Source: Candidatus Rokuibacteriota bacterium (GTDB lineage Bacteria; Methylomirabilota; Methylomirabilia; Rokubacteriales; CSP1-6). Taken from it: a DNA stretch of 64,000 bases. Below the pieces are notes generated by a model. The model ran no database searches. It was not told the origin of the DNA and worked only from the letters and a program-made list of their open reading frames with translations. The stretch covers positions 1-64,000 of the forward strand of contig JAUSJX010000060.1 of assembly GCA_030647435.1 (NCBI GenBank), written 5' to 3'. Position numbers and translations under genes: made by a program. Numbering within the stretch: position 1 is the stretch's first letter; every line of letters starts with the position of its first letter. This document shows, one piece after another, positions 13,663 to 29,451 of the stretch.

Positions 13663-14214
13663 ATGAAACCGACCCGATCAGCCGCCTTCCAGCAGCTTCG
13701 AGAATTCCTCGAACACGACATAGAGCACACACTGGCGATGGGCCACGGCGGCAATTACATGGCCGCCCTGGTCTTGATGGTCGGTGCCGAAGCCCTCAGT
13801 CTCCTCGTGGACGGCGACGAAAATGATGTCCCGATCAAGCTGCTCGCGCGGAACGAGGTGGATAAGTTTATGGCCCTAGACGTGATGACCGCGCTTCGCG
13901 ACGGCATCGCGCACACGTACGAGACCAAGTACGTCAAAGTCGGGGCCGAGTTGATCGAGATGGTGGTGAGTTGGGGGGAAAGGCAGCATCTCACGCTTCG
14001 GGTTGACCCCCTCGGCTTGTATGTCAACGTCCGCACTCTGTGGGGTGATTTGCGTGAAGAGTTAGGGGCCGTCGAGGCACGTCTCAAAGCTAATGCGGAA
14101 TGGGCCGGACAAGTGCCCAAGAAGTCTCCGGGGTGGATCAGAGAGGCGACGAAGGATTCCCGTCCGGGCTGGGAGAAGCTACTTCAATCTTACGGGAAGG
14201 GGGTCCAACCTTGA
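13663..14214 (+). CDS. HEPN-like uncharacterised protein
   Basis: 183 residues; AAGGAGG precedes ATG 13663. The middle is helical and contains A-L-R-D-G-I-A-H-T-Y (R to H spacing Rx4H near residue 84), which fits the catalytic R-x4-6-H signature of HEPN ribonucleases, preceded by a hydrophobic helix (AALVLMVGAEALSLLV). HEPN proteins are frequent in toxin-antitoxin and phage-defence loci, but I see no antitoxin-like nucleotidyltransferase next to it. The assignment rests on one motif. Its stop overlaps the start of the next small gene (TTGA). Confidence 0.6.
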   Translation: MKPTRSAAFQQLREFLEHDIEHTLAMGHGGNYMAALVLMVGAEALSLLVDGDENDVPIKLLARNEVDKFMALDVMTALRDGIAHTYETKYVKVGAELIEMVVSWGERQHLTLRVDPLGLYVNVRTLWGDLREELGAVEARLKANAEWAGQVPKKSPGWIREATKDSRPGWEKLLQSYGKGVQP

Positions 14215-14375
14215 GGGCCGCCATCTACACCGGATTCCTCTTCGTCATCCTCTGCACCCTGCTCGCCGTCGCCACGTCGGCCTCGGCGGAGTGTACGTGG
14301 TTGCTATGGCAGGAGGACCAGGACAATATCCATCCTTCGACGGCCAAGAAGCTGATGGTCGGTTGCCGTGCCTGA
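14211..14375 (+). CDS. small exported protein
   Basis: 54 residues starting at TTG 14211, which overlaps the previous stop (TTGA) and has a GGGAAGGGGG purine run just upstream. A signal peptide is clear: basic start, FLFVILCTLLAVA, cleavage at ASA-EC. The mature part is about 30 residues with two cysteines. It overlaps the next gene by eight bases. It is probably real because of the signal peptide and coupling, but it has no recognisable family. Confidence 0.5.
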   Translation: MRAAIYTGFLFVILCTLLAVATSASAECTWLLWQEDQDNIHPSTAKKLMVGCRA

Positions 14376-15090
14376 CCCACGCTCCCTCCTGCCCTTCGCG
14401 GAACTTGCAAAGCCGAGAACACCCGCCGAATTGGCTGCGTGGGTAGACGAGACAATCGCCGCGATCGCCGAAGTTGCGGACGCAAGAAAACCCGCCCTGA
14501 TGCACCAAGGACCCTTCAAGAAGTTCTATGAGGAGATTTATCCGCTGAATCTGTTCGTCAAGCACCGCTACTCGGGCCGGGAAGACATCCTAGTCACTCC
14601 CAATCCAGACAACCGATCTTTCGACGCCGTAGTCCGTGACGGCTCCGTCTCGCCACCATTGAAAGTCATGGTGGAGATAACGCAAGCGTGGGACCCTCAA
14701 GCGCATCTCCGCATGGAGTATTTCGTGACGCACGGAGGCGTACGCCTGTGGTCGCCCGTCATCAGTTCGGGCAACAAGCGGAACCGGAACACTCACGTCG
14801 AGCTAATGGCCGTTGATCGTGAGGAGCACGTGCGACGCGAGTGCGCCTGGATCAAGGAGGCAGCTGAGGGCAAAGCAAGCAGAACCGACCACTACGGTCC
14901 CTCCCATGTGCTAGTCATCGCCTTCGACGATTGGTGGAAGCCCAGTGATGGGGACATCGGCGAGCTGAGAGTATTCGTCACCGAGCATGTCCTTCCCTTG
15001 CCTCTGAACTTTTCGGCGCTGTACATTCTTGGGATGTCGGGTAGAACGTACCTACCATTCTCCCTGACCAGCTCGGGCGGCAACGGCTAA
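14368..15090 (+). CDS. uncharacterised protein
   Basis: 240 residues, GTG start at 14368 overlapping the previous gene by eight bases. Not recognised. The central region alternates beta strands and helices (FDAVVRDGS, LKVMVEITQAWD, HVLVIAFDDWW), which could fit a restriction-nuclease-like core with D and E-x-T, but the usual E-x-K is absent, so this is only a thought. It has no membrane segments. It sits in a run of same-strand small genes (13663-17732) that may be one transcription unit. Confidence 0.7.
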   Translation: MPDPRSLLPFAELAKPRTPAELAAWVDETIAAIAEVADARKPALMHQGPFKKFYEEIYPLNLFVKHRYSGREDILVTPNPDNRSFDAVVRDGSVSPPLKVMVEITQAWDPQAHLRMEYFVTHGGVRLWSPVISSGNKRNRNTHVELMAVDREEHVRRECAWIKEAAEGKASRTDHYGPSHVLVIAFDDWWKPSDGDIGELRVFVTEHVLPLPLNFSALYILGMSGRTYLPFSLTSSGGNG

Positions 15091-15093
15091 GCG

Positions 15094-15399
15094 ATGAAAA
15101 CACTCCATGTCCTCATTCTCGCCGGGTCCATCCTCGGCGCGTCGTGGATACTCAAGCCTGTCCCACTGGAACAGGTGAGTCAGGCTGAGCTACAGCGCCG
15201 GGAGGAACTTGAGCGGTTGATTCAGGAGCGATCCCTTGACGCGAAGCTAAGGAACTGTGCCGCTTCTCTAGGGAAGACCGTTGAGACTCTTGATCGGGAC
15301 GACCCGAAGCAGGCGACGGCCTTTGACAAGTGTGTGTGGCCGGAGGAGTCGCGAGGTCCCATCCGCAGAATGTGGGACAAGATTTGCGGCCTGCGGTGA
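15094..15399 (+). CDS. small membrane-anchored or exported protein
   Basis: 101 residues. One N-terminal hydrophobic segment (LHVLILAGSILGASWIL) is followed by a charged helical stretch with a short coiled coil (QAELQRREELERLIQERSLDAKL) and three cysteines. It begins three bases after the previous stop, so it is in the same operon. No known family. Confidence 0.65.
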   Translation: MKTLHVLILAGSILGASWILKPVPLEQVSQAELQRREELERLIQERSLDAKLRNCAASLGKTVETLDRDDPKQATAFDKCVWPEESRGPIRRMWDKICGLR

Positions 15400-15421
15400 G
15401 CGACCTAAAAAGGAACAATCT

Positions 15422-16543
15422 ATGACCACCCGCAAGCCCTACATCGTCGTCACCCTGCTCTTCTGCATCCTCGCCGTCGCGACCTTGGCCCATGCTGGAT
15501 GGGAGGAGGGCCAGAAGGCCTTTGCGCGGCGCGACTACAATTTGGCCCTCCGAGAATTTCTGCCCCTCGCCAAGGGAGGGCACGCGGAGGCTCAGCTAAA
15601 TGTCGCCTTCATGTATAACCAGGGTCTCGGAGTCCCTGTTGACCATGTTGTGGCTATTCAGTGGTACCGGAAAGCCGCTGAACAGGGATTAGCAGAGGCC
15701 CAAGCGCAACTGGCCGCCGTCTATTCGCTGGGCCTCGGGGTCCCGCGGAACTACCCTGAAGCCGTCAAGTGGTCCATCAAAGCCGCCGAACAAGGACACC
15801 CGCAGGGCCAGTTCAACCTCGGTGCATTCTATACGTACGGACTTGGTGGGCCGAGAGACTATAAGAAGGCAGCATTCTGGACCCGCAAGGCCGCCGAGCA
15901 GGGTGATGCTGCGGGCCAGTTTAATCTCTCTGTGCTCTACGAGGACGGGCTGGGCGTTCCTCGAGACAAGGTTGAAGCCCTGATGTGGCTCTTGTTAGCT
16001 CCGCAGCAGGTCGGGGATCCCTCTATCAGTATGCCGGCCCGTGGCGCGCCCGATATTGCTTCTCAGGCTCAGGCCGCTGGCAAATCCTTGGCGGCTCGAA
16101 TGAGTCCTGCTCAGATCGCTGAGGCGGAAAGGCGCGCACGGGAGTGGAAGCCGAAACCGGAGGCGACCCTGAAAACGGGCCTCCCCCTCTCTGCTCAGAG
16201 CGAAGGGCAGCAGCCAACAATCTCGGAGAAACTCGAAGAGCGCTACTTCACAACTCTTGACGATTGGGTGGCACGCGGCGGTCCAATCGACGACGTTCAA
16301 AAGACGGTGGTCCCGACGTGCGGGAAACTCGTGATGTGGACAGGGTCAGCAAGCGAGAAGATCGGTTTCTTGGCATCACAACGGGACGAGTTCGATTTCC
16401 GCGTCGACGTCTGCATGACGATGACCGTAAACCGCGTTCACAAGCAGCCCAACTTTGAGAAGCCGGAACTAGTCGAGTCTATCTGTGACAAGAGCGGCAT
16501 CCTGCTCTTCACCAAACTCTGCAGGCGAAGCGGCTTGCGGTAG
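15422..16543 (+). CDS. Sel1-repeat secreted protein
   Basis: 373 residues with a Sec signal peptide (cleavage near AHA-GW). Four Sel1-type tetratricopeptide units follow (about 40-190), each with the A-x2-W-x-R/I-K-A-A-E-Q-G then A-x-x-L-G/N-x-x-Y/L-x2-G-L-G-V-P pattern. These form a superhelical protein-binding surface. After a linker, the C-terminal ~100 residues hold four cysteines, probably disulphide-bonded in the periplasm. Sel1 proteins are adaptors; the partner is unknown. Confidence 0.85.
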   Translation: MTTRKPYIVVTLLFCILAVATLAHAGWEEGQKAFARRDYNLALREFLPLAKGGHAEAQLNVAFMYNQGLGVPVDHVVAIQWYRKAAEQGLAEAQAQLAAVYSLGLGVPRNYPEAVKWSIKAAEQGHPQGQFNLGAFYTYGLGGPRDYKKAAFWTRKAAEQGDAAGQFNLSVLYEDGLGVPRDKVEALMWLLLAPQQVGDPSISMPARGAPDIASQAQAAGKSLAARMSPAQIAEAERRAREWKPKPEATLKTGLPLSAQSEGQQPTISEKLEERYFTTLDDWVARGGPIDDVQKTVVPTCGKLVMWTGSASEKIGFLASQRDEFDFRVDVCMTMTVNRVHKQPNFEKPELVESICDKSGILLFTKLCRRSGLR

Positions 16544-16642
16544 GTGCAAGGAGGAGGCATGAGCGAGCGCGCCTTCCATCACACGAAGGAATGACGGAGC
16601 CACCATGCGGACCCGCGTAGGCGTTGGAAAGGACATGCAGCG

Positions 16643-17116
16643 ATGAAAGGTTGGCGCAGACAGGCGGTGCTTTACCACCTCTACGACATTCTCGTCGTGA
16701 AGTATTGGGCCTGGATCCTCTTGGGGTGTGTCCTCCTCGGCCTCGCGGCGACGGGCTATGTGGCATGGGGATGGGCACTCTTCGGGGTCGCCCTCATTTG
16801 GTACTGGATGAGTAAGAACTACGGGGCGAGGCAGTCGAACCACCTGAGCTTTTACATCGTCTACCTTCTGCTGGACGACGACATTCGTGAAAAACAGAAG
16901 AAAAGATTCCGTGAGTGGATTCGCTCGGAGAAGGCCCCGGGCGCGATGGCTTTGTCCATGCGGGCTATAGCCGCCATTCAACGGTCCGCCGACGTATTTG
17001 CCGTAGGTGACCCTCAGCAAGGCGTGGGCGGCTCGGCCCTTCAATCCCACCACATGATCTGGAGGGTAAAGAATGAGCCCGATACCGTCGACCCGCGCGG
17101 GCCGACGGGGAAGTAA
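16643..17116 (+). CDS. small membrane protein
   Basis: 157 residues. Two closely spaced membrane segments (YWAWILLGCVLLGLAATGYVAWG and ALFGVALIWYW, about 20-55) are followed by a cytoplasmic-looking domain with a basic helix (REKQKKRFREWIRSEK). No family recognised. The start at 16643 follows a GGAAAGGA purine run. The gap before it (16544-16642) contains nothing recognisable. Confidence 0.65.
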   Translation: MKGWRRQAVLYHLYDILVVKYWAWILLGCVLLGLAATGYVAWGWALFGVALIWYWMSKNYGARQSNHLSFYIVYLLLDDDIREKQKKRFREWIRSEKAPGAMALSMRAIAAIQRSADVFAVGDPQQGVGGSALQSHHMIWRVKNEPDTVDPRGPTGK

Positions 17117-17303
17117 GCAAGCCATGCGGCCCCATGCGCCGGTTGAAGTCGCTGTCCTAGCCTTCTTCGAAGAGCATCGGCGTTGCGGTGCGCTGGATAG
17201 CGGCGTCGCGGGCACACGAGTCTGGGTGCAGCGCCTTCATGGTGCACCCGCTTCGCGGTGTACCAGCCTTTAACGAATTGCGGTGACAGGAGCGGCGAAA
17301 CCC

Positions 17304-17732
17304 ATGTTCATCAACTCATTCGTGAGCGCGATTCTCGTGGTGCTCGTCGCGGGCGGCTGCGAGCAGGCCTGGACATCGAAGGCGACCGTGCTCGGACGCT
17401 GGATCGAAACGCCAGAGAGTCTGCGCGTGAAGTGGCAGAATGACCCATATTCGCATGAAGTTGAACTGTTCAAAGACGGCACCGGCGCTTCGATCCTGAG
17501 AAACCAGGAGTACATGAGCGGGCCACACGTAGTCCGGGCGGGTGAGGTTACAGAGTCTTTCACGTGGTCACTGTCCGACGATGGCAAACGGATCAAGACG
17601 GAGACCCAGGTGCGCGGCCAGGCCCCGGGGGTTCGGCGGGTGGTCGTGCAGCGAATCGTCAAGCTAACCGGCAATGAACTTCAGGTCGACGAGGTCGGGA
17701 TGCTCAAGGGCAGCTTTGTGAGAGGCCAGTAA
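17304..17732 (+). CDS. lipoprotein
   Basis: 142 residues from ATG 17304 (CAGGAG upstream; a GTG at 17283 is an alternative). The lipobox LVAGGC puts the lipidated cysteine near residue 19. The mature part is beta-rich (VLGRWIETPESLRVKWQND, FTWSLSDDGKRIKTETQV), resembling small lipocalin-like domains, but without a family call. It is the last gene of the rightward run, followed by a strong hairpin at 17831. Confidence 0.7.
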   Translation: MFINSFVSAILVVLVAGGCEQAWTSKATVLGRWIETPESLRVKWQNDPYSHEVELFKDGTGASILRNQEYMSGPHVVRAGEVTESFTWSLSDDGKRIKTETQVRGQAPGVRRVVVQRIVKLTGNELQVDEVGMLKGSFVRGQ

Positions 17733-17830
17733 GCCTCTCCATCTTTCATTTTACGGGAACGATTCATTACCTGAAGATGCTAGGCGGGCTAGGATCAACG
17801 ACGTGGTACTCCTGCATTCCTCCCCAACGC

Positions 17831-17865
17831 CCAAGGGGCTAGCCGACGCCCGGCTAGCCCCTTGG
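17831..17865. terminator. bidirectional hairpin terminator
   Basis: A perfect 15-bp stem, CCAAGGGGCTAGCCG with CGGCTAGCCCCTTGG, closes a 5-base loop. It lies between convergent genes ending at 17732 and 17904. There is no long T run, so it may act with Rho or as a stability hairpin. Confidence 0.7.
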
Positions 17866-17903
17866 TGCTTCCGCTGCAACCTGTGGGCCTTAGTCCTCTC
17901 GAA

Positions 17904-18212
17904 TCAGGAACTCTTCAGGATTCGCGCGAGCGTCTCCCGGTCGAGCGGAATATCGACTAACTCATTCCCCACCTGCACTCGAATGCGCCCCAGCTTCAAA
18001 CGTTTTGGAGTTTTTCCTGTCCTTTTCATCTTCGCCATATCCGCAAGTCCCTTCATGTACCAGCGTGCGGCGCGCTTGCCTCCTCGATGCCGGATCACGT
18101 CCGCAACTTCGGAGGCGTAGGGGACGCCTCGTGGAACTAACCCATCCTCCCGCAATTCCTTGCACACGTGCTTCACACCAATCACGACATGACCCATTGG
18201 CGAAACGCTCAT
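17904..18212 (-). CDS. uncharacterised small protein
   Basis: 102 residues from ATG 18212 with a strong CAGGAGGAAA site. The N-terminal part contains G-H-V-x-I-G-V-K-H-V-C and RGVPYASEVADVIRHRGGKRAARWYMKGL; the C-terminal half is basic, then ends with a short acidic strand and helix. It looks like a small nucleic-acid-binding protein, but this is a guess from charge and helices. It is convergent with the lipoprotein gene, and its upstream DNA carries the TTTCGGACA repeat also found in the structured promoter repeat at 12749. Confidence 0.6.
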   Translation of the reverse strand: MSVSPMGHVVIGVKHVCKELREDGLVPRGVPYASEVADVIRHRGGKRAARWYMKGLADMAKMKRTGKTPKRLKLGRIRVQVGNELVDIPLDRETLARILKSS

Positions 18213-18269
18213 CGTTTCCTCCTGCGAGTTTGTTCGCTTCAATTGGGCGGACGACCCGCCCGTCACTAG

Positions 18270-18291
18270 TTTCGGACAGTATTCGGACACC
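18270..18291 (+). repeat. third copy of the TTTCGGACA direct-repeat pair
   Basis: TTTCGGACAG followed by TATTCGGACACC matches 21 of 22 bases of 12749-12770. It lies 58 bases upstream of the ATG of the leftward gene at 18212, without the extended -10 block, suggesting a protein-binding site separable from the promoter. Confidence 0.75.
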
Positions 18292-18298
18292 GGAAGCA

Positions 18299-18331
18299 CA
18301 AAGGGTTGGCCGATGACCGGCCAACCCTTTG
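18299..18331. terminator. hairpin, 14-bp stem
   Basis: CAAAGGGTTGGCCG pairs perfectly with CGGCCAACCCTTTG around the loop ATGAC. It could terminate transcription entering from either side of the island edge. It is adjacent to repeat copy A. Confidence 0.55.
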
Positions 18332-18339
18332 TAAACAAT

Positions 18340-18403
18340 GGTTGCGGGGGCCCGCAATCACCGAAAGCGAACAACCTGACCTTCGGGGTCGACCTCGTCT
18401 GAC
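18340..18403 (-). repeat. 60-bp hairpin-ended repeat, copy A
   Basis: Read on the minus strand it starts GACGAGGTCGACCCCGAAGG, continues through TTTCGGTGA and ends in the stem TTGCGGG-CC-CCCGCAA. The same layout is found at 36062-36125 (minus) and 42014-42080 (plus). All three can be read as D-x-V-x-x-E-G-x-x-x-R-F-R followed by a stop and the hairpin, like the 3' end of a common gene or mobile element. Confidence 0.7.
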
Positions 18404-18418
18404 AGGTAGTGTGATAAG

Positions 18419-18676
18419 TGTCACGACGTGCGGGTCTGTAAAGTGCCACGACCTCCGGGTCGGGATGATCGTGGAAGACTGACGACCGGGGGAGAGGCCA
18501 GGGATCACGAAGGCCCCGGGAAGCATGACACCAGCCCATGGTGGCCGAGGTGCGTCGGGGCCGGTCGATGCGTCAGGAGGCGCAATACCGCTGCCACGTC
18601 GTCGCTTCTACGAGTGACCCGCAGGTCGTGACACATGCACACAAGCCATCTTCCAAGTGACCCGGAGGTCCTGACA
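18419..18676. mobile_element. internally deleted IS or MITE, about 258 bp, with multiple terminal repeats
   Basis: The left end has TGTCACGACGTGCGGGTC (18419-18436) and a second unit GTGCCACGACCTCCGGGTC (18443-18461). The right end has the inverse units GACCCGCAGGTCGTGACAC (18616-18634) and GACCCGGAGGTCCTGACA (18659-18676). TG...CA ends with two repeat units per side resemble the multiple-terminal-repeat layout of IS21-type elements. The interior keeps a short transposase-like start from ATG 18538 (MVAEVRRGRSMR) that breaks down quickly, so the element looks like a deletion derivative. Confidence 0.65.
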
Positions 18677-18791
18677 CCTGGCCGTTTGCTGTTAGAGGCG
18701 TGACACCGTGCCCGTCGGCGCGACGCGTCGCGTGATCGCATCATTTATATGTGCTGAACCTCATGTCCTGAACCCGGCGCATACTCCTGGC

Positions 18792-19496
18792 GTGGCGACG
18801 ATCGACTTCGCGAGCAAGCAGGTCCTGAGCTTCGACTGCTACGGCACGCTCATCGACTGGGAGACCGGCATCCTGGCGGCGCTGCGACCGATCCTCTCGC
18901 GTCACGGCGTGACCGTCGACGCCGACCGCATGCTGACGCTGTACGGCGAGATCGAGTCGACGGCCGAGCACGGCCCGTACCGGCCGTATCGCGAGGTGCT
19001 CACGGCGGTCGTGTCCGAGCTGGGCACGCGGCTGGGGATCACGATCTCCGGCGCCGACGCCGCGCGCTTCGCGGACTCGGTCGGCGACTGGCCCCCGTTT
19101 GCCGATACGCGCGCCGCGCTGGCCGCGCTCAAGCACCGCTTCAGGCTGGCGATCATCTCCAACGTCGACGACGACCTCTTCGCCCGCACGAATCAGCAGC
19201 TCGGCGTCGAGTTCGACTGGATCGTCACCGCACAGCAGGTCGGCAGCTACAAGCCGTCGCCCAACAACTTCCACCACGCGCTGGCGCGCTTCGGCCTGCC
19301 GAAGGCCGCGATCCTCCACGTCGCGCAGAGCCTCTTTCACGATCACGTGCCGGCGAAGCAGCTCGGCCTCGACACGGTTTGGCTCAACCGCCGGCACGGC
19401 AAGGCCGGATTCGGCGCGACGCCGCCGGCGACGGCACGGCCGGACCTCGAGGTCCCGGATCTGGCGACGCTGGCGCGCCTGGCGAACGCGACGTAG
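18792..19496 (+). CDS. HAD-superfamily hydrolase, haloacid dehalogenase type II-like
   Basis: 234 residues from GTG 18792. HAD motif I is SFDCYGTLIDWETG (nucleophile Asp near 15), motif II Ser is in IISNVDDDLF, motif III Lys in GSYKPSPNNF, and motif IV in HVAQSLFHDHVPA. The D-x-Y-G-T-L and the K-P-x3-x-F spacing are typical of L-2-haloacid dehalogenase-like proteins, which hydrolyse small 2-haloacids, although many relatives are phosphatases. It stands alone, just right of the repeat-rich island edge. Confidence 0.85.
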   Translation: MATIDFASKQVLSFDCYGTLIDWETGILAALRPILSRHGVTVDADRMLTLYGEIESTAEHGPYRPYREVLTAVVSELGTRLGITISGADAARFADSVGDWPPFADTRAALAALKHRFRLAIISNVDDDLFARTNQQLGVEFDWIVTAQQVGSYKPSPNNFHHALARFGLPKAAILHVAQSLFHDHVPAKQLGLDTVWLNRRHGKAGFGATPPATARPDLEVPDLATLARLANAT

Positions 19497-19580
19497 CGCC
19501 GAGCATCGCTGTCGCGCCGCTCATTGCTTGACGAGGGGGCGGCCGTCGCCCTAGGCTCTCGCAACCAGGGAGGAGCGCCC

Positions 19581-19876
19581 ATGCCAATGCTGCCGCTGAT
19601 CCTGCTCGTGCTCGCCTTCATCGCGGCGCCGCTCGGCGACACCGCGTTCGCGCAGTCGAAGTACAAGGAGGCGCCGATCCTGGCCGAGCAGGTGAAGGCT
19701 GGCAAGCTGCCGGCGGTGGACCAGCGGCTGCCGAGCGAGCCGCTCGTCGTGCCCACGGTCGAGCGCACGGGGCAGTACGGCGGCGTGTGGCGCCGCGCGT
19801 TCCTGGGCCTGGCGGACGCCAACAACTACGTGCGCGTGGTCTACGACGCGCTGGTGCGGCACTCGCCCGAGCGCGT
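19581..19876 (+). pseudogene. ABC substrate-binding protein, 5' fragment
   Basis: Starts at ATG 19581 after GGGAGGAG, with a good signal peptide (LLILL... cleavage near AFA-QS) and the opening of an SBP_bac_5-type protein: KYKEAPILAEQVKAGKLP, GQYGGVWRRAFLG, NNYVRVVYDALVRHSPE. After about 98 residues the match stops and the sequence becomes an IS5-type transposase. The remaining ~450 residues are nowhere in the window, so this is a truncation with rearrangement, not a simple insertion. Confidence 0.8.
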
Positions 19877-19887
19877 AAGTAACATAA

Positions 19888-20265
19888 AGCCTGTTCTCCG
19901 ACGCGGCGTCCCCGGCGGAGGTCACGCTCCTCAAACACACCCTCGCGAGTCAGCCGATCCGGGGCAGGCCGCAGCGGCTGATTGCCGATCCCGGCTACGA
20001 CAGCAATGCCGTGCGGCGCCTCCTCAAGCGGCGCCACATTCAGCCGATCATCCCCGCCCGCCGGAACAATACGCAGGCCACGGACCAAGACGGTGGTTGC
20101 CTCCGCCGCTATCGGCGGCGCTGGATTGTCGAACGCACGATCGGCTGGCTCGGCAACTTCCGCAGACTGACGGTGCGCTATGTCCGACGTCAGCGGAGAG
20201 GACGCCGCTCTCTCCTGATCTTTATCGTGCTAGACTCGTGGGCGCCTAACGCTCTGACTAGTTAA
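19888..20265 (+). mobile_element. IS5-family transposase, 3' fragment
   Basis: The open frame without a start begins at 19888 (FSDAASPAEVTLLKHTLA), continues RLIADPGYDSNAVRRLL with the second catalytic Asp, then RYRRRWIVERTIGWLGNFRRL with the catalytic Glu of the DDE triad, and ends at TAA 20265. This is the C-terminal ~125 residues of an IS5/IS427-type transposase; the first Asp and the N-terminus are missing. The junction at about 19877 is the breakpoint of the truncated ABC gene. Confidence 0.85.
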
Positions 20266-20266
20266 G

Positions 20267-21304
20267 ATGCCTTTTCAATATCTGCGCCCCGAGAAGATCG
20301 CCGCGCTGTCCGTCCGCCAACTCGGGCGCTACAAGGACGCGGCGTTTGACCACTGGCGATCGAAGGGCTTCCCTTATCCGAAGCTGTCCCGAAGCCAACT
20401 CGAGCAACAGTACCGTCAGTTCGCGATGTCGTGCCGTTCGGTTTTCGGCCGCGGCCGCTCCATCACCTGGTCGCCCCTCGGACTCGGCATAGCAAATTTC
20501 TTTCACCCGCACATGTGGGCGGTCAAGTGCCAGTACTTCCGCAGTCCAGTGCAGGTGTTTCGCAACGACACTCTACTTGCTCACTGCATAGACCGGTCGC
20601 TTCGCATCAACACCGACCGCACGCCTCTGAACGCGAACAACATGAGGGTGATGCTTGCAACGTTTTCCAACACCAAGCGAGTTTCGAATTTTCGGCCGAC
20701 TGCGGCCCGCGCTCTGTACCAGCGCTATTCGCGAGATGGAGACATCATCGTCGATCCCTCTGCAGGTTTCGGCGGCCGGCTGCTGGGCGCGTTGCCCCTG
20801 GACCGCGAGTACATCGGCATAGAGCCCAACACCCAGTCCGTGAAAGGGATGAGCCGCCTGCTCGACGCTCTCTCCGGCCATCCGCTCACCAAAGGCCGCG
20901 GACGCGTCCTCCAAGGTCGTTGTGAAACGTTGTTGCCTAAGTTGCCGGGACGCTATGCCGCCATGGTGATCAGCTCGCCACCCTACTTCGCGCGGGAACG
21001 ATACGGTCGCGGCCGGGAACAGAGCTGGGTTCGCTATCCTGAGTACGAAGAATGGAAAACCCACTTTCTCGCCTCACAGATGCGCGAGATTCACCGCATC
21101 CTCCAGCCGGGTGGGTTTTACTGCCTGAACGTCGAGAACACGGAGACACACGCGGTTGCCGATGACGCAATTGCGATCGCGCGACAGTTCTTTCGACCTT
21201 TCTTCGTGTACAAGCTCATGATTGGGTGTGTGCCCTATCATCGGAACGGACAGCGCGGCGGGCATCGATCGGAGCGACTTCTAGTCTTCCAGAAGGGCCG
21301 TTAG
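20267..21304 (+). CDS. DNA methyltransferase-like protein (SPPY motif)
   Basis: 345 residues; ATG 20267 lies directly after the IS5-fragment stop. A long N-terminal region (1-150) is rich in aromatic and basic residues and probably recognises DNA. The Rossmann core has motif I DPSAGFGGR (163-171), an acidic ribose-binding residue in GIEPNTQS, and catalytic motif IV SSPPYF (237-241), as in N4-cytosine and some N6-adenine amino-methyltransferases, then LQPGGFYCLNV. It should transfer a group from SAM or a SAM derivative to an exocyclic amine in DNA. The asparagine-synthetase-like gene starts three bases after its stop. There is no restriction endonuclease beside it. Confidence 0.78.
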   Translation: MPFQYLRPEKIAALSVRQLGRYKDAAFDHWRSKGFPYPKLSRSQLEQQYRQFAMSCRSVFGRGRSITWSPLGLGIANFFHPHMWAVKCQYFRSPVQVFRNDTLLAHCIDRSLRINTDRTPLNANNMRVMLATFSNTKRVSNFRPTAARALYQRYSRDGDIIVDPSAGFGGRLLGALPLDREYIGIEPNTQSVKGMSRLLDALSGHPLTKGRGRVLQGRCETLLPKLPGRYAAMVISSPPYFARERYGRGREQSWVRYPEYEEWKTHFLASQMREIHRILQPGGFYCLNVENTETHAVADDAIAIARQFFRPFFVYKLMIGCVPYHRNGQRGGHRSERLLVFQKGR

Positions 21305-21307
21305 ACT

Positions 21308-22705
21308 ATGTGCGGTTTGTTCGTCTCAACGTGCCCGCTCAGTGCCGCGGCCCACGTACGCGTCACGCATTTCGTTCAGAGGCGCGGAACGCTACCGGTC
21401 CGCTGGCACACGATGCCGAACGGCCACGTTCTGGCTCACTCTCTTCTGCCGATTCGCGGCCGGGCGCCTCGTCACCAGCCAGCGGTAGGCCGCCGCGGAG
21501 TTCTCGCGTTTACGGGCGAGCTCTGGGATGTGACGCAGAACCGTTCAGATACCGATGTGGTCCTCGCTCGACTTGAATCGATCGGCCCCAGGAAAGCATT
21601 CAGATCGTTCCACGGCAACTGGGCGATCGTCTACCTATCCAGCCATGACGGCTACATCCATTTCGCAACGGATCGGCTTGGTGAGCAGCCTCTTCACTTT
21701 GCCTACGACGGCACCCGTCTCAGTGTCGCTACCGAGATCAAGACCCTCGTGGCTGCCGGGCATCCGTTCGAAGCCGTCAGGCCCGTCGTTCCGGGCATTC
21801 ACTACACATACTCGGGAGAGCTTTTCGAAACCACGTACAAACCTGGCGGCTCCGACGCGAAGTACAAGAGCTTCTGCAAACGCGTGCTCCGCAGACGTAT
21901 TGCTGAGGCTGTCCGTTCGCAAGCCGCGGCGCACGACCCTCGTCACGAAGTGGTGATTCTCCTCTCCGGCGGTATCGACTCGACGATCATAGCTTTCGAG
22001 GCCGCCAAGTCGGGAGTCACGCGCGCCTTTACCGTTGCTGTCGACGCCCGTGCCCCAGACGCAATCAACGCGGCGCGAGTGGCTCGCGAGTTGGGGCTCG
22101 ACTGGGAGCTCGTGCTTGCACCCCCAGCGTCGCCCACCAGTGCAGTCGCTTGCGCGGAAATCGCTAATCGCAGCATCGTCGAAGAGCTCTGCATGCACCT
22201 CCATCTCGCCGCTCGCCTGCAGGAGCTCGGCATCCACATTGCGTTGACGGGATCCGGGGCCGACGAGCTCTTCGTGGGCTATGGCCATCTCCTGGGGCGT
22301 GTCCCTCACCACGCTCTTCAGGAACGCTTCCTGTCGACGTACTACCGCTTCGATCTGCGGGCCGTAAACAAAATCTACGGCGGGTACCAGGTAGAGGTCA
22401 GAAACCCATTCCTGTCGAGACACCTGGTCGAATACGCTCGTAGAATTCCAGGAGACGTGCTGATCGGTCCGTCGCGCGCACTCAAGTGGCCGCTCCGCGA
22501 GACATATCGCGACGTACTGGGCGCGTTCTCGACACGCCCAAAGCTCATCGCTCGAGAAACCATGGGCGTTAAATCGCTTTTCCAGAAGCGGTTTGGACTC
22601 TCACCCTACATCTACCGTCCACTGCTGAAGTCGCTGCTGCGCAGCAGCGCGGCAACCCTTCGCGCGATCTCGTGCGCACCGACGCGAATCAAAACAAAGC
22701 GGTGA
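21308..22705 (+). CDS. asparagine synthetase-like glutamine amidotransferase
   Basis: 465 residues. It begins Met-Cys-Gly-Leu-Phe, leaving Cys2 as the glutaminase nucleophile after Met removal. The class II amidotransferase domain continues with FTGELWD and DRLGEQPLHFA. The synthetase domain has the PP-loop LLSGGIDST (220-225) and TGSGADELFVGYGH. Both half-reactions (ammonia from glutamine, AMP activation of a carboxylate) therefore look intact. At 465 residues it is shorter than AsnB (~550). Its tight linkage to a DNA methyltransferase-like gene suggests it amidates something other than aspartate, possibly a carboxylated base. It overlaps the convergent TPR gene by 17 bases. Confidence 0.82.
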   Translation: MCGLFVSTCPLSAAAHVRVTHFVQRRGTLPVRWHTMPNGHVLAHSLLPIRGRAPRHQPAVGRRGVLAFTGELWDVTQNRSDTDVVLARLESIGPRKAFRSFHGNWAIVYLSSHDGYIHFATDRLGEQPLHFAYDGTRLSVATEIKTLVAAGHPFEAVRPVVPGIHYTYSGELFETTYKPGGSDAKYKSFCKRVLRRRIAEAVRSQAAAHDPRHEVVILLSGGIDSTIIAFEAAKSGVTRAFTVAVDARAPDAINAARVARELGLDWELVLAPPASPTSAVACAEIANRSIVEELCMHLHLAARLQELGIHIALTGSGADELFVGYGHLLGRVPHHALQERFLSTYYRFDLRAVNKIYGGYQVEVRNPFLSRHLVEYARRIPGDVLIGPSRALKWPLRETYRDVLGAFSTRPKLIARETMGVKSLFQKRFGLSPYIYRPLLKSLLRSSAATLRAISCAPTRIKTKR

Positions 22706-24797
22706 CCAGCGCATGGGTAGCCAGATTCGAGGCGGCCACTTCCTTCTCGGCGGTTGCGATGCGGACGGCCCGATCCTTCGCCCACCAAGTCGTGTGGCTG
22801 TCATAAAACGCCTTCGCATTCTTCAGCGACTCGAGCGAATTCTTCCGCTCGAGGAGGAACTCGGCCTCCTTCTCTTTCGCCTCGGTTTTGCTGGAGTGAA
22901 AGCCGCGGATCTTTTGGATGGCCCATACTGCTTTTGCCCAATGCAGTTCCCCGGGATCATCCGAGCGCGCGTTATGGAGCAACTGGTCGATTTCTGCGCG
23001 TTTTGCATCCCTCCCGTCCCCCGACAACGCCGACCACTCCCACATTGCTACTCGCGCTGACACCAGCAAGAGACCCTCATCATCGTCCCGCAGGGCCAGT
23101 GCCTTGTCGACATGCTCCCGCGCGAGTTTCAGATCGTTCCCCGAACCCGCCGGTTTTGCCGCCAGTCTTCCGTAGATCTGCGCGAGCTTGTAGTGACCCC
23201 AGTAGTCGTTCGGTTTCAACTTGAGGGACTGCTGGAAGTAATCCGCGGCCGTCGAGAGGTCGCTCAGGGCCGAGCTGAACGACGGCTCCGCATAGATTGC
23301 CCCCAGATTCTGCAGCACGGTGTACTGCCGCGGCTGTGCCGCGTTCGCCGACTCCAATTCGCGGATTGCTTGATCACACTCGGTCCGGAACTGCGCCTCA
23401 TTTGGCGCCTCAAGCAGCGCCTGACGATATCGTGTATATCCCTGCGCGCTCATGATCAAGCGTTGCAAGGCACGCCGCTCCGCTGTCGCGCTGTGCGCGC
23501 CCGACGTCCAATAGGGAATCGCATGTTGATCCGCGTCCTGCGCCTCTGTGAGAAATGCGCGGTGCGTGCTTGCAACCGCCGCAACGAATTCCTGAAGCGG
23601 CATCGTGGCCGTCTTGATGGCCTGTTGTGAAGCTGCGGCACGGGCCTCATTCAACGCGTCAATGGTCGCTCCACTGACCTTTTGCTTACGCTCAACGAAT
23701 GTCACCAGATGACCAGTAACGTCTGCGAGTTGCGCCGCGGCGTATGCGGCGAGACTCTGCACCTTGCGTGCCTCGTGCGCGCCAGCGGAACCCGCCTGCA
23801 GGTCGCCCCGAATCAGCCCGCGCAACGCACGAAGGTGCTTCAAAGACGTTGCGGCTCCATCAAGGGTATATCTGAAGAAGTGCGACTGTGACCGGTTGAG
23901 CTCGAGCTGATACCGTCGCGCCTTCTCATCGGGGCTCAGGCCTGCCAGCAACTGCTTGTCGAGCGGTGCGTCCGTCCGGAGCAACCGCCCGTAGATGCGT
24001 ATGGCCTGCTCTTCCTTTCGATCCTCGGCGAGGGCGAGGGCCAGCAGGGTCAGCCCCTGCTCGAATTGCGGCATCTCTTGCTCGACGATCCGAAGATTCT
24101 CAATTGCTGCCACGAGATCGGATTGCTTCTGGCCCTCCTGATAAAGCCGCATACGCTCGGCCCCGCGAACGAAGGCCTCCAGCGATTGAGCGTCTGGGAA
24201 CTCGGACGCCTTCCCCGGCGTCTGCTCGCCGAGATCGAACAGTACGCGGAAGACCGCCGCGTCAATGAGCACACTCTTCGCGTCATCGCCCTTCGATGCC
24301 TCGAACGGCTGCGAGAGTCGCCACTCGCGCTTCGTCTTGCCGTGCAGCTGCAATCGCAAAACGACGTAGTGAGTCTGACCGCTGGTCTCCCCTTCGACGG
24401 AGAGCAACTTGTAGGGCGGATTCAGGAACTTCTGCATCACCCCGAAGACATCTCCCGCCTTTACCCCGGCAATGGAGACATTCAGATCGGCGAGTTTCTG
24501 CTCAGCCCGCCAAAGATGGTCCGGCAGGAAGAGCACTTGCTGCGCTTGGTCCTTGCCGGCAGGGAGAGTGGCCCACTGTGAAAATCGCTCACGGAACGTG
24601 TGCGCCAGCGCATCCTCCGATTTGCCATCCCAATACACCTCGTGTACGTAAATCTCCGGCGGGGGGCTGATGTACTTCAGCAGGACACGGGCAACGTACC
24701 AGGTAACGGCCAGTCCGATGATGAGTACTAGCAGCAGCGCAAGGACATACGGAATGGTTCTGAGAACGGCCGCAATCGATTCGATCACTTCTGACAT
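22689..24797 (-). CDS. membrane-anchored TPR protein
   Basis: About 702 residues from ATG 24797; an in-frame start at 24833 would add 12. A single membrane segment (IPYVLALLLVLIIGLAVTWYVARVLL) is followed by a mixed domain (60-200) and a long helical region with tetratricopeptide-like repeats, clearest near ARQYTVLQNLGAIYAEPSFSS and YFQQSLKLKPNDYWGHYKLAQIYGRL. A scaffold or sensor is likely; no catalytic motif is visible. It is convergent with the amidotransferase gene. Whether it belongs to that locus or to the cassette side is unclear. Confidence 0.75.
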   Translation of the reverse strand: MSEVIESIAAVLRTIPYVLALLLVLIIGLAVTWYVARVLLKYISPPPEIYVHEVYWDGKSEDALAHTFRERFSQWATLPAGKDQAQQVLFLPDHLWRAEQKLADLNVSIAGVKAGDVFGVMQKFLNPPYKLLSVEGETSGQTHYVVLRLQLHGKTKREWRLSQPFEASKGDDAKSVLIDAAVFRVLFDLGEQTPGKASEFPDAQSLEAFVRGAERMRLYQEGQKQSDLVAAIENLRIVEQEMPQFEQGLTLLALALAEDRKEEQAIRIYGRLLRTDAPLDKQLLAGLSPDEKARRYQLELNRSQSHFFRYTLDGAATSLKHLRALRGLIRGDLQAGSAGAHEARKVQSLAAYAAAQLADVTGHLVTFVERKQKVSGATIDALNEARAAASQQAIKTATMPLQEFVAAVASTHRAFLTEAQDADQHAIPYWTSGAHSATAERRALQRLIMSAQGYTRYRQALLEAPNEAQFRTECDQAIRELESANAAQPRQYTVLQNLGAIYAEPSFSSALSDLSTAADYFQQSLKLKPNDYWGHYKLAQIYGRLAAKPAGSGNDLKLAREHVDKALALRDDDEGLLLVSARVAMWEWSALSGDGRDAKRAEIDQLLHNARSDDPGELHWAKAVWAIQKIRGFHSSKTEAKEKEAEFLLERKNSLESLKNAKAFYDSHTTWWAKDRAVRIATAEKEVAASNLATHALVTALF

Positions 24798-25743
24798 GAC
24801 CCATCCCGCCTTGGCATTCCTTCTTATTATCATCTCATTTTGTCTGGTAGCAAAGGAGCGTCAATCGTACCTACTTTGCCGAGAGTCAACCACTGTGATT
24901 GCCCGGGAGCAGCGAATGCAACCATCGTGTCGCAATCGAGGCGTGAAGGAGATAGTGCAGAATGCGCGAAGCGTGGCGTCGTCGTGCCGAGCGTAGGAAA
25001 CATTAAGGCCCCCCCTGAACTTCGCCCGGTTTCGTGGACACCCCGGATCGCACGAAAGTACGGGAGGAATCGTGTCACCCGCCCCGGCGGCTGCGCCCAC
25101 GGCGCCTCTGCCCCAGCCACCGCCAGCCCCAGCGCCACGGCTATGCCCGGCGCCATAGCGTATCGGACCCACTGTCGCGCTATGCCTTCAGTTGTTAGAA
25201 GACATTTCAAAACCGTTCCTCGGGTGTTCTGACGATGCCGAGGGCCTTGATTTTATGGGTTGCCCCGGTACCGCTGCCGAGGCCGCACGCGGTTTTCAAA
25301 TGGCTTCTAGTGAAATCACGAGCATTCCTCCTCCGACGCCCCGTTGCTTTTCGACCCTCTTCCAAAGTCTGCACCGTCGATTTGGCAAGATCATATACCC
25401 TTCCTTTGTCCGTGGGCGGTCCGCGTACTGCGTGTCTTGGTTGCGTCACACTTTTGTCGGGATTCAGCCCATCACTCCAAGCCGGAACTCCAGCGTCTCC
25501 TGCCGACCTGGTGTCGCCTACGTGTCCACGAATCAAGTGATTCTTGAACTCGCTGGCTGGATCCGCTAAGCCTCGTAACTCCAACCCTCGAGTGCAGCCA
25601 AAGCCCGGCAGTCATATGAACGCCGGGAGTCCTTGGTCGTAGACTTCAAAATCCTCCAGGACATCCGGTCGGCAAGTGCCTGTCCCTACAAGGGTCTGAT
25701 TGTGGTTAAAATCGGAGGTCTAAAGGAAATGATTGTAAATAAC
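24798..25743. other. gene-poor stretch
   Basis: I see no convincing gene. Around 25015-25046 the minus strand reads GTGTCCACGAAACCGGGCGA, similar to ends of IS3-type elements. A short minus-strand frame from 25156 (MAPGIAVALGLAVAGAEA) resembles a signal peptide but loses any sense at the IS-like end, so it may be a clipped exported-protein gene. The rest has frequent stops in all frames. Confidence 0.5.
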
Positions 25744-25804
25744 GGCTAACGACTGACGGCTCAGCGGCGCGCGCACGCGCGTCCGCTGCAACCGCTGGTT
25801 CGAC
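25744..25804 (-). other. integron attC site
   Basis: Read on the minus strand: GTCGAAC (R''-like), nine bases, CAGCGG-A-CGCGCG, TG, CGCGCG-CCGCTG, 11 bases, GTTAGCC (R'). The central stem is perfect except for one unpaired A, which is the extrahelical base IntI uses for strand choice. The orientation puts it at the 3' end of the HerA gene. Confidence 0.85.
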
Positions 25805-25915
25805 GGCTACCCAAAAATGGATCGAGAGGATGGGAAAGCTGATGCGGATCCTGCAAGACCGATACTTCGAGGCGCCGAAGCCAACGCCCAGCACCCCCAG
25901 CGGCAAGCTGGCGCT

Positions 25916-27706
25916 TCAAGCGAGCGTTCCCGCTGTGCGAGATTGCCGGCGCAGCGTTTCGACTGCTGCCACAACTGCGGCAGAGTCCGGAGCCTTTTCG
26001 CCCCACTCCTGCCAGAAGTTGCGGGTCTGGCTCAGCGGCTCGATGGTTGGGAACTTCAGCTTGATTCGGGCGGGTAGGAGGATCGCGTCGCCCAGTAACA
26101 AGGCTTCGCCGGTGTCGAGCAGCGGCAAGCCATCGAGGACACCCGCCAGGGAATCAGGCATGAGGCGACGGACGACATTCTGGTCCTGATCGTTGGTCAA
26201 GCGCAGGATAAGGAAGTTATTGCACTGGCTGAGGATGGTTCGGCTCACGTCCGAGGGGCGCTGGCTCACCACAAGAAGGGAGACGCCGTATTTTCGGCCT
26301 TCTTTAGCGATGCGCTCGAAGGAGTAAAGGGCCTGTTTCTCGACTGCGTCCGCGTCTTCACGGACCGGCAAGTACAGATGGGCTTCGTCGCATACGAAGA
26401 CGAACGGCGTCCGCTTGTCCGGCTGCATCCAGAACTGAACATCGTAAAGGAGTCGTGCGAATACGCCCGTGACAACGGGGAGCACGTCCGACGGCACTTC
26501 GGAAAAGTCCACCACCTTGATGCCGTGTTTTCCCTCGCCCGGGGCAAGCAGCTTTGCGATTTGCTTCGCGAGCCAGTGGTACTTGAGAGCAGCCTCTGGC
26601 GGCTTGAACATGAAGCCATACCGGCGGTCCTCCGCTTTGGCTTCGAGGCGGGAGATGAACCGCGTCAGTTTCCCGTTCCAATCTCCTTTGATCTCCGCTT
26701 TCGTCGTCCCAGGCTTCGTGCCCGTGTCGTCTTCTCGCAGCATTACGAGGAGATCGGTGAGCCTGTAGGGCACGGGCGAGTCCACGGTGAATGTTGCACG
26801 GACCGTCTCCTGCTTCTCGTCCTTCAGGGTCTTGTCCTTAAAGTCCCGCACATGAGTTGTAAATCGTGCTGCCTGGTTTGGCGCGTTCTGATCGCTGCGG
26901 TCCAAGATCATCGAGAGCATTTCGTCCCGGTTCAGGAGCCAGTACGGTAGGAAGAGTGCGTTTTCCGGTGGCTTGGCGAGATCACCCGGACCTGCGATCT
27001 TGAACCCGGCGGCAATAGGGATTGGCATTGTGCCGTCCTCACGAGCGGGCGGGTTCGCGAGCGAGGCGTACTCGCCGTGCATGTCGAACACGATGATGTT
27101 CGCGTGCTTGCGGGCGTGTGCACGTTCCAGGATCAACGACACCGCGCAACTCTTGCCCGAGCCGGTACTGCCAAGGATCGCCGCGTGCCTCTGAAAGAAG
27201 CGATCGCCGTTCGCGATCGCGGCGGCTGAGCGGTCGATGGCGAAGTAGCCGAGCTCGAGCCGCTGCGTCTCATCCAGGTCCTTGCCCAGTAACCCCATGA
27301 AACGCTGAAGGTTGCCGCCCTCGATGAGAAAACAATCGCGATCGATTTGTGGGAACGAATCAGCGCCCCGCTTGAACCGGTTGCGGACAGTTCCCTCGAT
27401 GGTGCGGTAGGTGCCGAGTAGGACGGCCCGGAGCGAATCGTCCGGCACGACCTCCACCGCGAGCGTCGTGGGTGCCATCGGATCAGGCGACGCTGTCTGC
27501 TCACGGAGCTGCCGGGTGACACGCTCCGTCATGCCAATCAGGAACTCCTGAGCGATCGTCCCCTGAATTGCGACAAGGCTCCCGACGGCAGCGCGTGGCA
27601 AGAGTGCGGCGTTTTCCACCGCGATGAGTACGCGGCTTGTGTCCACGGAGGCGACCTTGCCGAGCTTGCTCGGCGCGTCAAACGTCAGAATGGGTGCATC
27701 GCTCAT
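25916..27706 (-). CDS. HerA-family ATPase of a SIR2-HerA defence pair
   Basis: 596 residues from ATG 27706 (GGAG site). An N-terminal HAS-barrel-like region (about 1-120) precedes the FtsK/HerA motor: Walker A GSTGSGKS (179-186), VFDMHGEY, and Walker B FVFVCDEAH (D440 E441), then SQRPSDVSRTILSQCNNFLILRLTN with the sensor and arginine-finger region. HerA hexamers translocate DNA. Here the start overlaps the SIR2 stop as ATGA, the arrangement of the SIR2-HerA (Nezha) antiphage system, in which the two proteins form one large complex that depletes NAD+ and can cut DNA. An attC site follows 112 bases after the stop. Confidence 0.92.
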   Translation of the reverse strand: MSDAPILTFDAPSKLGKVASVDTSRVLIAVENAALLPRAAVGSLVAIQGTIAQEFLIGMTERVTRQLREQTASPDPMAPTTLAVEVVPDDSLRAVLLGTYRTIEGTVRNRFKRGADSFPQIDRDCFLIEGGNLQRFMGLLGKDLDETQRLELGYFAIDRSAAAIANGDRFFQRHAAILGSTGSGKSCAVSLILERAHARKHANIIVFDMHGEYASLANPPAREDGTMPIPIAAGFKIAGPGDLAKPPENALFLPYWLLNRDEMLSMILDRSDQNAPNQAARFTTHVRDFKDKTLKDEKQETVRATFTVDSPVPYRLTDLLVMLREDDTGTKPGTTKAEIKGDWNGKLTRFISRLEAKAEDRRYGFMFKPPEAALKYHWLAKQIAKLLAPGEGKHGIKVVDFSEVPSDVLPVVTGVFARLLYDVQFWMQPDKRTPFVFVCDEAHLYLPVREDADAVEKQALYSFERIAKEGRKYGVSLLVVSQRPSDVSRTILSQCNNFLILRLTNDQDQNVVRRLMPDSLAGVLDGLPLLDTGEALLLGDAILLPARIKLKFPTIEPLSQTRNFWQEWGEKAPDSAAVVAAVETLRRQSRTAGTLA

Positions 27707-28731
27707 GTCAGTAGCTCCTTTGCCAGAACGCCCAGATCCCACAAGTCGTGCCCCTGATGCTCGAACCGGAGTCCCTTTGTCACCATCGCGACTCCCGCCC
27801 ATGCCGGCGGTTTCGAGAGGCAAACGCAGCGCGGCGATTCCTCCGCCAGCTTCGCGACCTTCGAGCTCGCCGATTGATTCAAGATCAGCGTGGGCGTGCC
27901 GTCCTGAATCCGTTTTACGAGATGGGTTTGCAGGTGATCGTCGTTGAAGCCGTACCCCACGACCAGTAGACGCCCGGCCCGCTTGATGTAGTCGTTGGCC
28001 AAATCGCGATGCTTGTCAAAGGGCGAGTTGTAGCCAGCCCGGTACTTGTTGACGCCGGGAGTGATCATGAGACGTTCCGCGTCCAGATCCAGACTGCAAC
28101 GACGCGCGTCGTTGCCGGATTGGTACCAGTCAAAGCTCCCATGCGGCTTCAGGACGATCGCACGCGGGAAGTGGTCGAGGACGGTGGTCTTGGCGCGTGT
28201 TGTGATGCCCCGGCATGATCCCATGCAACTTCGGGCATGGTCGAACGCCCCCGCGTAGTGCCCGACGGCTGTGGTGTCTACATGGAAGCCCGCCATCTCG
28301 CATGCCACCTCGATGAGCCGATCATAGTTGGGTGTCAGGATCGGCAGCCCATTCGTCGGCTTCAACACCTTGGCCAGGAATGTCGTCAGGCGAAGGGAGC
28401 GATCGCCTCGGAGCACCGCACTCATGACTTCGCGTTCCTTCGGCATCAGGAGTTCGCACGTCCCTTGTGCGATCCAGACCTCAAGCGTGTCGGATGGCGG
28501 GTGCTTAAGCAGCGCCGCTTCCAATCCTTCCTCGGCAACCAGCACGGCCTTGATCTGATTCCACAGTGTCGCGTCGGTTCCCGTCAGCACGCTTCCGGCG
28601 TTGCTGAGATGCGTTGCAAGCGCGGGCATTCCCGGGATCCCCTCAGCGGCGGACAGCCCGGACCCGATCACCAACGCGAGACCGTCGGTGAAGTGCTCCT
28701 GCACGAATGTGACCAGTGCGCCGTAGTCCAT
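27703..28731 (-). CDS. SIR2-like NADase of a SIR2-HerA defence pair
   Basis: 342 residues from ATG 28731; a TTG at 28743 is an alternative, and neither has a strong ribosome site. SIR2 motifs: VIGSGLS (22-27), T-P-N-Y-D-R-L-I-E (catalytic Asn 135, Asp 137), KPHGSFDW (catalytic His 197) and VGYGFNDDHL (258-267). This bacterial SIR2 class hydrolyses NAD+ on phage infection rather than deacetylating proteins. It is translationally coupled to HerA. The gene lies between the attC-like region 28797-28926 and the attC at 25744, so the pair reads as one two-gene cassette. Confidence 0.92.
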   Translation of the reverse strand: MDYGALVTFVQEHFTDGLALVIGSGLSAAEGIPGMPALATHLSNAGSVLTGTDATLWNQIKAVLVAEEGLEAALLKHPPSDTLEVWIAQGTCELLMPKEREVMSAVLRGDRSLRLTTFLAKVLKPTNGLPILTPNYDRLIEVACEMAGFHVDTTAVGHYAGAFDHARSCMGSCRGITTRAKTTVLDHFPRAIVLKPHGSFDWYQSGNDARRCSLDLDAERLMITPGVNKYRAGYNSPFDKHRDLANDYIKRAGRLLVVGYGFNDDHLQTHLVKRIQDGTPTLILNQSASSKVAKLAEESPRCVCLSKPPAWAGVAMVTKGLRFEHQGHDLWDLGVLAKELLT

Positions 28732-28796
28732 CTTCGTACTCAATGTCGCGACCGTCTCAAGAGCAGCATCCTGCCAACTCGCGCCTCACAAGTCTC

Positions 28797-28926
28797 GACG
28801 AAGCCAACCAGGCGTAGAGCGACGTTCCTTGCGGTTGTTCTGTCCCTCGCACGCTTGGGTTCATCGGGGCGACAGCAGAAAACGAAGCATCACTCTTGAA
28901 GCGTTCGGTGCAAGGCGTGGTTAGGC
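28797..28926 (-). other. possible long attC site
   Basis: On the minus strand GCCTAAC (28926-28920) begins directly after the stop codon of the nuclease gene, as cassette attC sites do, and GGTTGGC about 125 bases later could be the partner core. I cannot draw a convincing inner stem, so this is weaker than the two short sites nearby. Confidence 0.35.
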
Positions 28927-29451
28927 TCATCTGTTACGGCCTTTGGGCGGTTGGAGTTGATAGATTCTGCAACCATATCTTGTCTTCCTGAGGTCTGCGT
29001 ATACTGCCTTGCCACGTTCCTCGAAACGACCGGTGGTTAGTTCTAGAACCTGAACGTGCGACTTGCGCCCGAAGACACATAGCAGAGCCATCGAACCTGG
29101 CTTGGCAGCAAGGAAGGCCCGAAGCTTGTCAACATCACGCTTTATGTCTGGCTTCTTTGATTTGACCCACTTAACTTCAATCGCAAGACGGAGCGAATGT
29201 TTTACGGCATAGAAGTCGAGGCGCTTCTTGTCACCTTGGTCCGGTTGCTCAATCCCTGGACACTTGTATTCGCACTTCACGGTGTAGCCTCGAGCCATCA
29301 GGATGCGGAGTATCGGCTCGTAAAGGGCGTATTCGCTGAACGCTTGATTCATCTCGCATGCCGCGAGGTAGCTTACGTAGGCGCTGAGCCCGCGCTTGAC
29401 TCGGAAGAGGACATTCGTTGGCTCGGAGTTCTTGCCCGTGGTCGTTGTCAT
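28927..29451 (-). CDS. PD-(D/E)xK nuclease-like protein (integron cassette)
   Basis: 174 residues from ATG 29451. A helix with YEPILRIL (Glu 46), then RLDFYAV (Asp 79) and LAIEVKWVKS (Glu 92, Lys 94) gives the E...D...E-x-K signature of the restriction-nuclease fold. The C-terminal part contains VQVLELTTGRFEERG. It is a small single-domain protein, probably a DNase or nicking enzyme. It is bounded by the attC at 29461 on its 5' side and a GCCTAAC core right after its stop, so it is an independent cassette on the minus strand. It is a plausible defence or toxin cargo. Confidence 0.72.
   Translation of the reverse strand: MTTTTGKNSEPTNVLFRVKRGLSAYVSYLAACEMNQAFSEYALYEPILRILMARGYTVKCEYKCPGIEQPDQGDKKRLDFYAVKHSLRLAIEVKWVKSKKPDIKRDVDKLRAFLAAKPGSMALLCVFGRKSHVQVLELTTGRFEERGKAVYADLRKTRYGCRIYQLQPPKGRNR

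Follow-up and report, generated by a model that had tools for sequence, protein, structure and literature searches.

A methyltransferase and an AsnB-like enzyme encoded side by side in a bacterial island: a possible relative of a putative CmoA-independent base-modification module on phage contigs

Introduction

A phage system for 5-carboxymethylcytosine consisting of CmoA, CmoX and CmoY has been described in Synechococcus phage S-B43 (Yang et al., 2025). This system needs CmoA, and for N6-adenine or N4-cytosine its authors report no CmoA-linked carboxymethyltransferase (PMC12783734). Enzymes of methyltransferase type can also transfer the 3-amino-3-carboxypropyl (acp) arm of SAM. Tyw2, which is of the Rossmann methyltransferase type, is one example; another is the methyltransferase-type enzyme of microcin C, which transfers acp and is paired with a PLP enzyme.

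Here we compare such systems with a gene pair in a stretch of 64,000 nucleotides from a Candidatus Rokuibacteriota bacterium (assembly GCA_030647435.1, contig JAUSJX010000060.1), which we call the window. An initial annotation of this DNA had proposed that the pair hypermodifies DNA, by transfer of a carboxymethyl group from carboxy-SAM and subsequent amidation.

Results

The two open reading frames lie on the forward strand, at the positions and with the 3-base gap first noted for them. The upstream gene (20267..21304, +) encodes a 345-aa amino-methyltransferase-like protein that matches PF01555 N6_N4_Mtase (3.8e-12, 47.1 bits against a cut-off of 26.7). The downstream gene (21308..22705, +) encodes a 465-aa AsnB-like protein with a class II glutamine-amidotransferase domain (GATase_7, 1.4e-11) and a PP-loop synthetase domain (PF00733 Asn_synthase, 2.4e-29). 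The pair had been described as fused in an operon; the adjacency is real, but the genes are separate and there is no fusion.

Motif I (DPSAGFGGR) and SPPY (motif IV, SPPYF), both noted earlier in the methyltransferase, were recovered. The protein retains the family-wide motifs, and its residues E244 and Y246 are invariant across the family. With its PF01555 match and SPPY motif, it is not of the PF00145 C5-cytosine type, which has SPPC and a carboxylate-binding Arg. The AlphaFold2 model (pLDDT 89) has a Rossmann methyltransferase fold. The nearest PDB structure was the Trm11 m2G10 methyltransferase, and other structural neighbours in BFVD were viral proteins annotated as N4-cytosine DNA methyltransferases. 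The model also matched the predicted structure of a 699-aa Satyrvirus protein named glutathione synthase (BFVD A0A3G5AD75), which may be a fusion with an amide ligase.

Against TIGR01536, the asparagine-synthase equivalog, the AsnB-like protein of the window scored 132.8 bits, half the cut-off of 267.1. Forty-five AsnB-like proteins, this one included, were aligned to compare its residues, which are numbered as in E. coli AsnB. Cys1, G75, E76, D98, the whole PP-loop (LSGGIDS) and K449 are kept. R49 is replaced by Leu and E348 by Ser in the window protein alone, N74 is replaced by Thr where all the others but one (Ser) have Asn, and the HRGPD box is absent. In AsnB, R49 and N74 help to bind glutamine and to form the oxyanion hole, whereas E348 is part of the synthetase site. 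The initial annotation had spoken of an amidotransferase with intact Cys2 and PP-loop. Both elements are present, but with R49, N74 and E348 lost they do not by themselves amount to an intact glutamine amidotransferase.

In the best trees, the window protein lay outside the AsnB clade on a very long branch of 2.6-3.3 changes per site, and the CmoA-linked clade was nearest to it. The AU test did not reject a grouping of this very long branch with true AsnB at the 0.05 level (p = 0.059). For a grouping with the methyltransferase-linked phage clade p was 0.039, a marginal value that long-branch effects may have influenced. Score, residues and tree position speak against a plain asparagine synthetase, even if the clade test is not decisive.

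The pair is located in a region of low GC (approx. 12000..36000), with values mostly of 0.58-0.62 against 0.66-0.72 on most flanks. A large serine recombinase (9762..11645, -; PF00239, PF07508, PF13408), the reading frame of which overlaps tRNA-Gln and tRNA-Glu at 9751-9921, is the likely integrase, and the segment 9751-36000 is probably an integrative island. Several proteins encoded in this segment have no Pfam match. A 62-base direct repeat, 84% identical, was found at 18339-18400 and 36062-36123, 17.7 kb apart. A fragment of a DDE transposase (20011..20265, +; PF01609, 2.2e-6) ends 1 base before the start codon of the methyltransferase. The gene for a membrane-anchored TPR protein (22689..24833, -; 714 aa, TPR matches) is convergent with the AsnB-like gene and overlaps it by 17 bases. 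The island also carries a defence pair of the SIR2-HerA type, made up of a HerA-like ATPase (25916..27823, -; PADLOC HerA, 6e-226) and its SIR2-domain partner (27703..28743, -; PADLOC SIR2, 6e-112).

In the methyltransferase tree, the window protein belongs to a clade of eight sequences with support of 100. The seven relatives (L023-L029) come from Acidobacteria, Verrucomicrobia, Bacteroidota and Rhodobacteraceae. Homologous TM/TPR proteins adjoin the methyltransferase in six of them (L023-L028), as in the window, and the TPR protein of the window is homologous to the one beside the L024 methyltransferase (9e-23). TM/TPR proteins and this methyltransferase clade possibly form an undescribed bacterial island system. 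An AsnB-like neighbour was found in none of the seven relatives; a PLP enzyme of the type found in phage M6 adjoins the methyltransferase in two (L024 and L029).

The methyltransferase family as a whole is rare. A scan of the genome collection yielded 35 loci, and in the phylum of G098 one of the 396 genomes searched has it, at the locus already known. In the phylum of the window, a search of 95 genomes gave no second representative of the window methyltransferase. Queries with the window AsnB-like protein or methyltransferase retrieved no close copy of the pair from relatives, the phylum, plasmids or IMG/VR. A match on a Tistrella plasmid (L141) was set aside: its AsnB-like protein overlaps a class I methyltransferase, and HMMs detected neither a window-type methyltransferase nor CmoA there.

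Phage loci were collected from the environmental contigs of IMG/VR by searches with AsnB-like alignments, and two kinds of locus emerged. The first, which corresponds to the described CmoA/CmoX/CmoY system, combines CmoA with a C5 methyltransferase, in which motif X, wherever our script recognized the motif, reads GRxVPP. The second combines a window-type methyltransferase with an AsnB-like gene, to which a PLP enzyme of the PALP family and a D-2-hydroxyacid dehydrogenase are usually added; the order of the genes takes several forms, and CmoA is never among them. In one scan, 12 of 80 AsnB-like loci had a window-type methyltransferase; in another, which overlapped the first in part, 26 of 78 did. 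The pairing of the two gene families on phage contigs exceeds chance. The AsnB-paired methyltransferases fall into more than one clade of the tree, and the pairing is therefore not one inherited block. The expectation that the pair would be conserved elsewhere is thus borne out at family level, on phage contigs, and fails for close relatives.

In a minimal set of seven loci (L246, L248, L249, L254, L257, L258 and L265), on contigs of 18-67 kb, one or more methyltransferases and an AsnB-like gene were the only members of the families searched for; no PLP enzyme, dehydrogenase or CmoA was detected on these contigs. A PNP_UDP_1 gene resembling MTA/SAH nucleosidases lies near the pair in L246 (12655-13227) and also in L248 and L249. 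Such a gene would fit acp transfer, and equally the removal of SAH. In the stretches around methyltransferase loci in general, none of the partners searched for was found at 67 of 80 viral and 30 of 35 genome loci. Queries of an annotated phage collection with the AsnB-like proteins of L178 and L246 returned distant AsnB-like matches and no such clusters, and we found no description in the literature of a module of methyltransferase, PLP enzyme, dehydrogenase and AsnB-like enzyme.

The PLP enzymes beside window-type methyltransferases had their best matches in the phage collection among M6-like phages (E down to 2e-19), where the PLP enzyme belongs to the M6/SN1 thymidine-hypermodification cassette. 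The M6 enzyme is said to decarboxylate a DNA-bound amino acid. Module PLP enzymes and the M6/SN1 enzyme have in common the C-terminal motif PFPCNxF(Y/W)D...FWN(I/L)G, which the bacterial L024 and L029 enzymes also carry with small changes. A model of the PLP enzyme resembled D-cysteine desulfhydrase and an ACC deaminase homologue. A search for the PLP enzyme in 27 phage records was empty, a weak result since no record known to match was included. Between PLP enzyme and dehydrogenase, L137 has a gene for a 329-aa protein without Pfam match (4185-5174).

The window matches the phage module in two respects, the window-type methyltransferase beside an AsnB-like enzyme and the lack of CmoA. HMMs for the PLP enzyme and D-2-hydroxyacid dehydrogenase families found nothing in the window, and elsewhere in the genome the PLP relatives are weak ones, probably with housekeeping roles.

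CmoA was not found in the window genome, which is 98.5% complete; the best matches reached 27 bits both with TIGR00740 and with an alignment of phage CmoA sequences. Nor was it found in the 7 bacterial genomes and 46 phage records examined that carry this methyltransferase family, or on 26 phage contigs bearing AsnB-like genes of the methyltransferase-linked clade; many phage contigs are fragments, so that absence from them is not proof. The positive control, CmoA of Streptomyces phage TurkishDelight, was found in both multi-record searches, with 89 bits against TIGR00740 and 433 bits against the phage alignment, of which the TurkishDelight sequence is itself a member. This phage and L014-L017 carry loci of the CmoA/CmoX/CmoY type. 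We also looked in the methyltransferases for a pocket residue specific to paired members and saw none; the one basic candidate, R171 near motif I, is nearly invariant throughout the family, unpaired members included.

Discussion

We tentatively favour the view that the window pair represents, in a divergent bacterial form, a DNA-base hypermodification module that is independent of CmoA and occurs on environmental phage contigs, while stopping short of calling this view probable. In such a pathway, the methyltransferase-fold enzyme would place a group on an exocyclic base amino group (cytosine N4 or adenine N6), and the AsnB-like enzyme would activate the carboxylate of that group as acyl-AMP and join an amine to it. 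The carboxylate would most plausibly come from the acp arm of SAM rather than from carboxy-SAM; the acp arm is the simplest source because CmoA is missing and minimal sets consist of methyltransferases and an AsnB-like gene alone. In the full phage version, the M6-type PLP enzyme and the D-2-hydroxyacid dehydrogenase may join the AsnB-like enzyme in tailoring the amino-acid side chain. The microcin C pairing may serve as a useful parallel to these phage clusters. The window has neither of the two additional enzymes and would therefore make at most a simple coupled product. Its amine would probably not be drawn from glutamine in the standard way, because the usual glutamine-site residues are changed. 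Acp transfer by window-type methyltransferases is inferred, and so are DNA as the target, the nature of the group that is moved, the sequence of the reactions and the activity of the window copy. The specific pathway, in which the acp arm is moved to an exocyclic base amine and tailored by the AsnB-like enzyme, with the window as a bacterial offshoot, appears rather unlikely when taken as a whole.

As a genomic finding the phage module is solid, and it is likely a base-modification pathway. The window copy provides weaker evidence, because its methyltransferase belongs to a TPR-associated bacterial clade and its AsnB-like half is aberrant. The favoured view is supported by the recurrent pairing on phage contigs, in several gene orders and more than one methyltransferase clade, by the M6-related PLP partner and the occurrence of the same PLP type beside window-type methyltransferases in bacteria, by the minimal sets, and by the AsnB-like enzymes of two other base-modification cassettes. 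It must accommodate a pair without close copy, a methyltransferase that stands alone in its phylum sample and has clade relatives without AsnB-like neighbours, and an AsnB-like protein that falls outside the methyltransferase-linked phage clade and lacks R49, N74 and E348; the PLP enzyme and dehydrogenase are missing as well.

Two other explanations of the window pair are serious rivals. The methyltransferase could be an ordinary N4-cytosine or N6-adenine DNA methyltransferase that works with the TPR protein, the AsnB-like gene being a passenger with a peptide, polysaccharide or metabolite substrate. A TM/TPR protein or pair is the constant neighbour in the window clade, partner enzymes are absent in five of its eight members and from most loci of the wider family, and the same island harbours the HerA-SIR2 defence pair. 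We consider this explanation possible but doubtful; against it stand the 3-base spacing in the window and the many phage contigs on which the two families are neighbours, in several methyltransferase clades. Alternatively, the pair could be a formerly working modification module with an AsnB-like half that is decaying or has turned non-catalytic. The length of the AsnB-like branch, the loss of three residues that nearly all of the 44 other proteins keep, and the transposase fragment abutting the start of the methyltransferase gene point in this direction. The frame is nevertheless open over 465 codons with Cys1, D98, the whole PP-loop and K449 in place, and we regard decay as distinctly improbable.

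The route put forward in the initial annotation, in which an amino group is carboxymethylated by means of carboxy-SAM and glutamine is used for the amidation that follows, has a precedent at C5 of cytosine in phages that encode CmoA, CmoX and the AsnB-like CmoY, and it is the CmoA-linked clade that lies nearest to the window AsnB-like protein. We reject this route because no CmoA was found in the window genome or in the genomes, records and contigs searched that carry this methyltransferase family or the AsnB-like clade linked to it. The near invariance of R171 and the changes at R49 and N74 argue in the same direction, and the route is largely refuted and very improbable. The broader idea of hypermodification involving an AsnB-like enzyme fares better: CmoY and the phage pairs support it in kind, and the carboxy-SAM chemistry is the part that falls.

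The phage clusters provide named candidates for an amide-forming base modification that uses amino-methyltransferases and no carboxy-SAM. If such a route is real, marine phage contigs would hold a side-chain chemistry new to DNA, with a link to a bacterial island system. The acp pathway in particular would be the first to yield an acp-type or N-linked amidated DNA modification via acp transfer and an AsnB-like enzyme.

Compared with known systems, the window protein resembles asparagine synthetase B in domain order, Cys1, PP-loop and catalytic Lys, and differs in length (465 vs 554 aa), in reaching half the family cut-off and at R49, N74 and E348. Mom of phage Mu is a GNAT-like acyltransferase; its likeness to the window rests on the hypothetical end product, an amide-bearing base, whereas its GNAT-type fold differs from the Rossmann methyltransferase fold of the window protein. 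Among PLP enzymes of known context, that of the M6/SN1 cassette is most closely related to the ones found next to window-type methyltransferases. The cassette differs in starting from 5-hydroxymethyl-dU and in using a kinase, aGPT-PPlases and a radical SAM enzyme; as shown, it is without methyltransferase or AsnB-like enzyme, whereas the window is without PLP enzyme. The 7-deazaguanine DNA modification cassette of Achromobacter phage Motura likewise has an AsnB-like gene beside base-modification genes, with QueC, QueE and TGT-like genes in place of a methyltransferase. The Motura gene (L316:5001-6281) lies between QueC and the TGT-like gene, which suggests amidation in 7-deazaguanine modification. 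AsnB-like enzymes thus serve two other base-modification cassettes, as CmoY and, by gene neighbourhood, in Motura. The CmoA/CmoX/CmoY system likewise combines, for the modification of phage bases, an enzyme of methyltransferase fold with an AsnB-like ligase, a type of ligase also present in the window, and a second cluster of its ligases retains the glutamine-hydrolysing domain. CmoX is a C5 methyltransferase with Arg at the position of HhaI N304, whereas the window-type module has an amino-methyltransferase and no CmoA.
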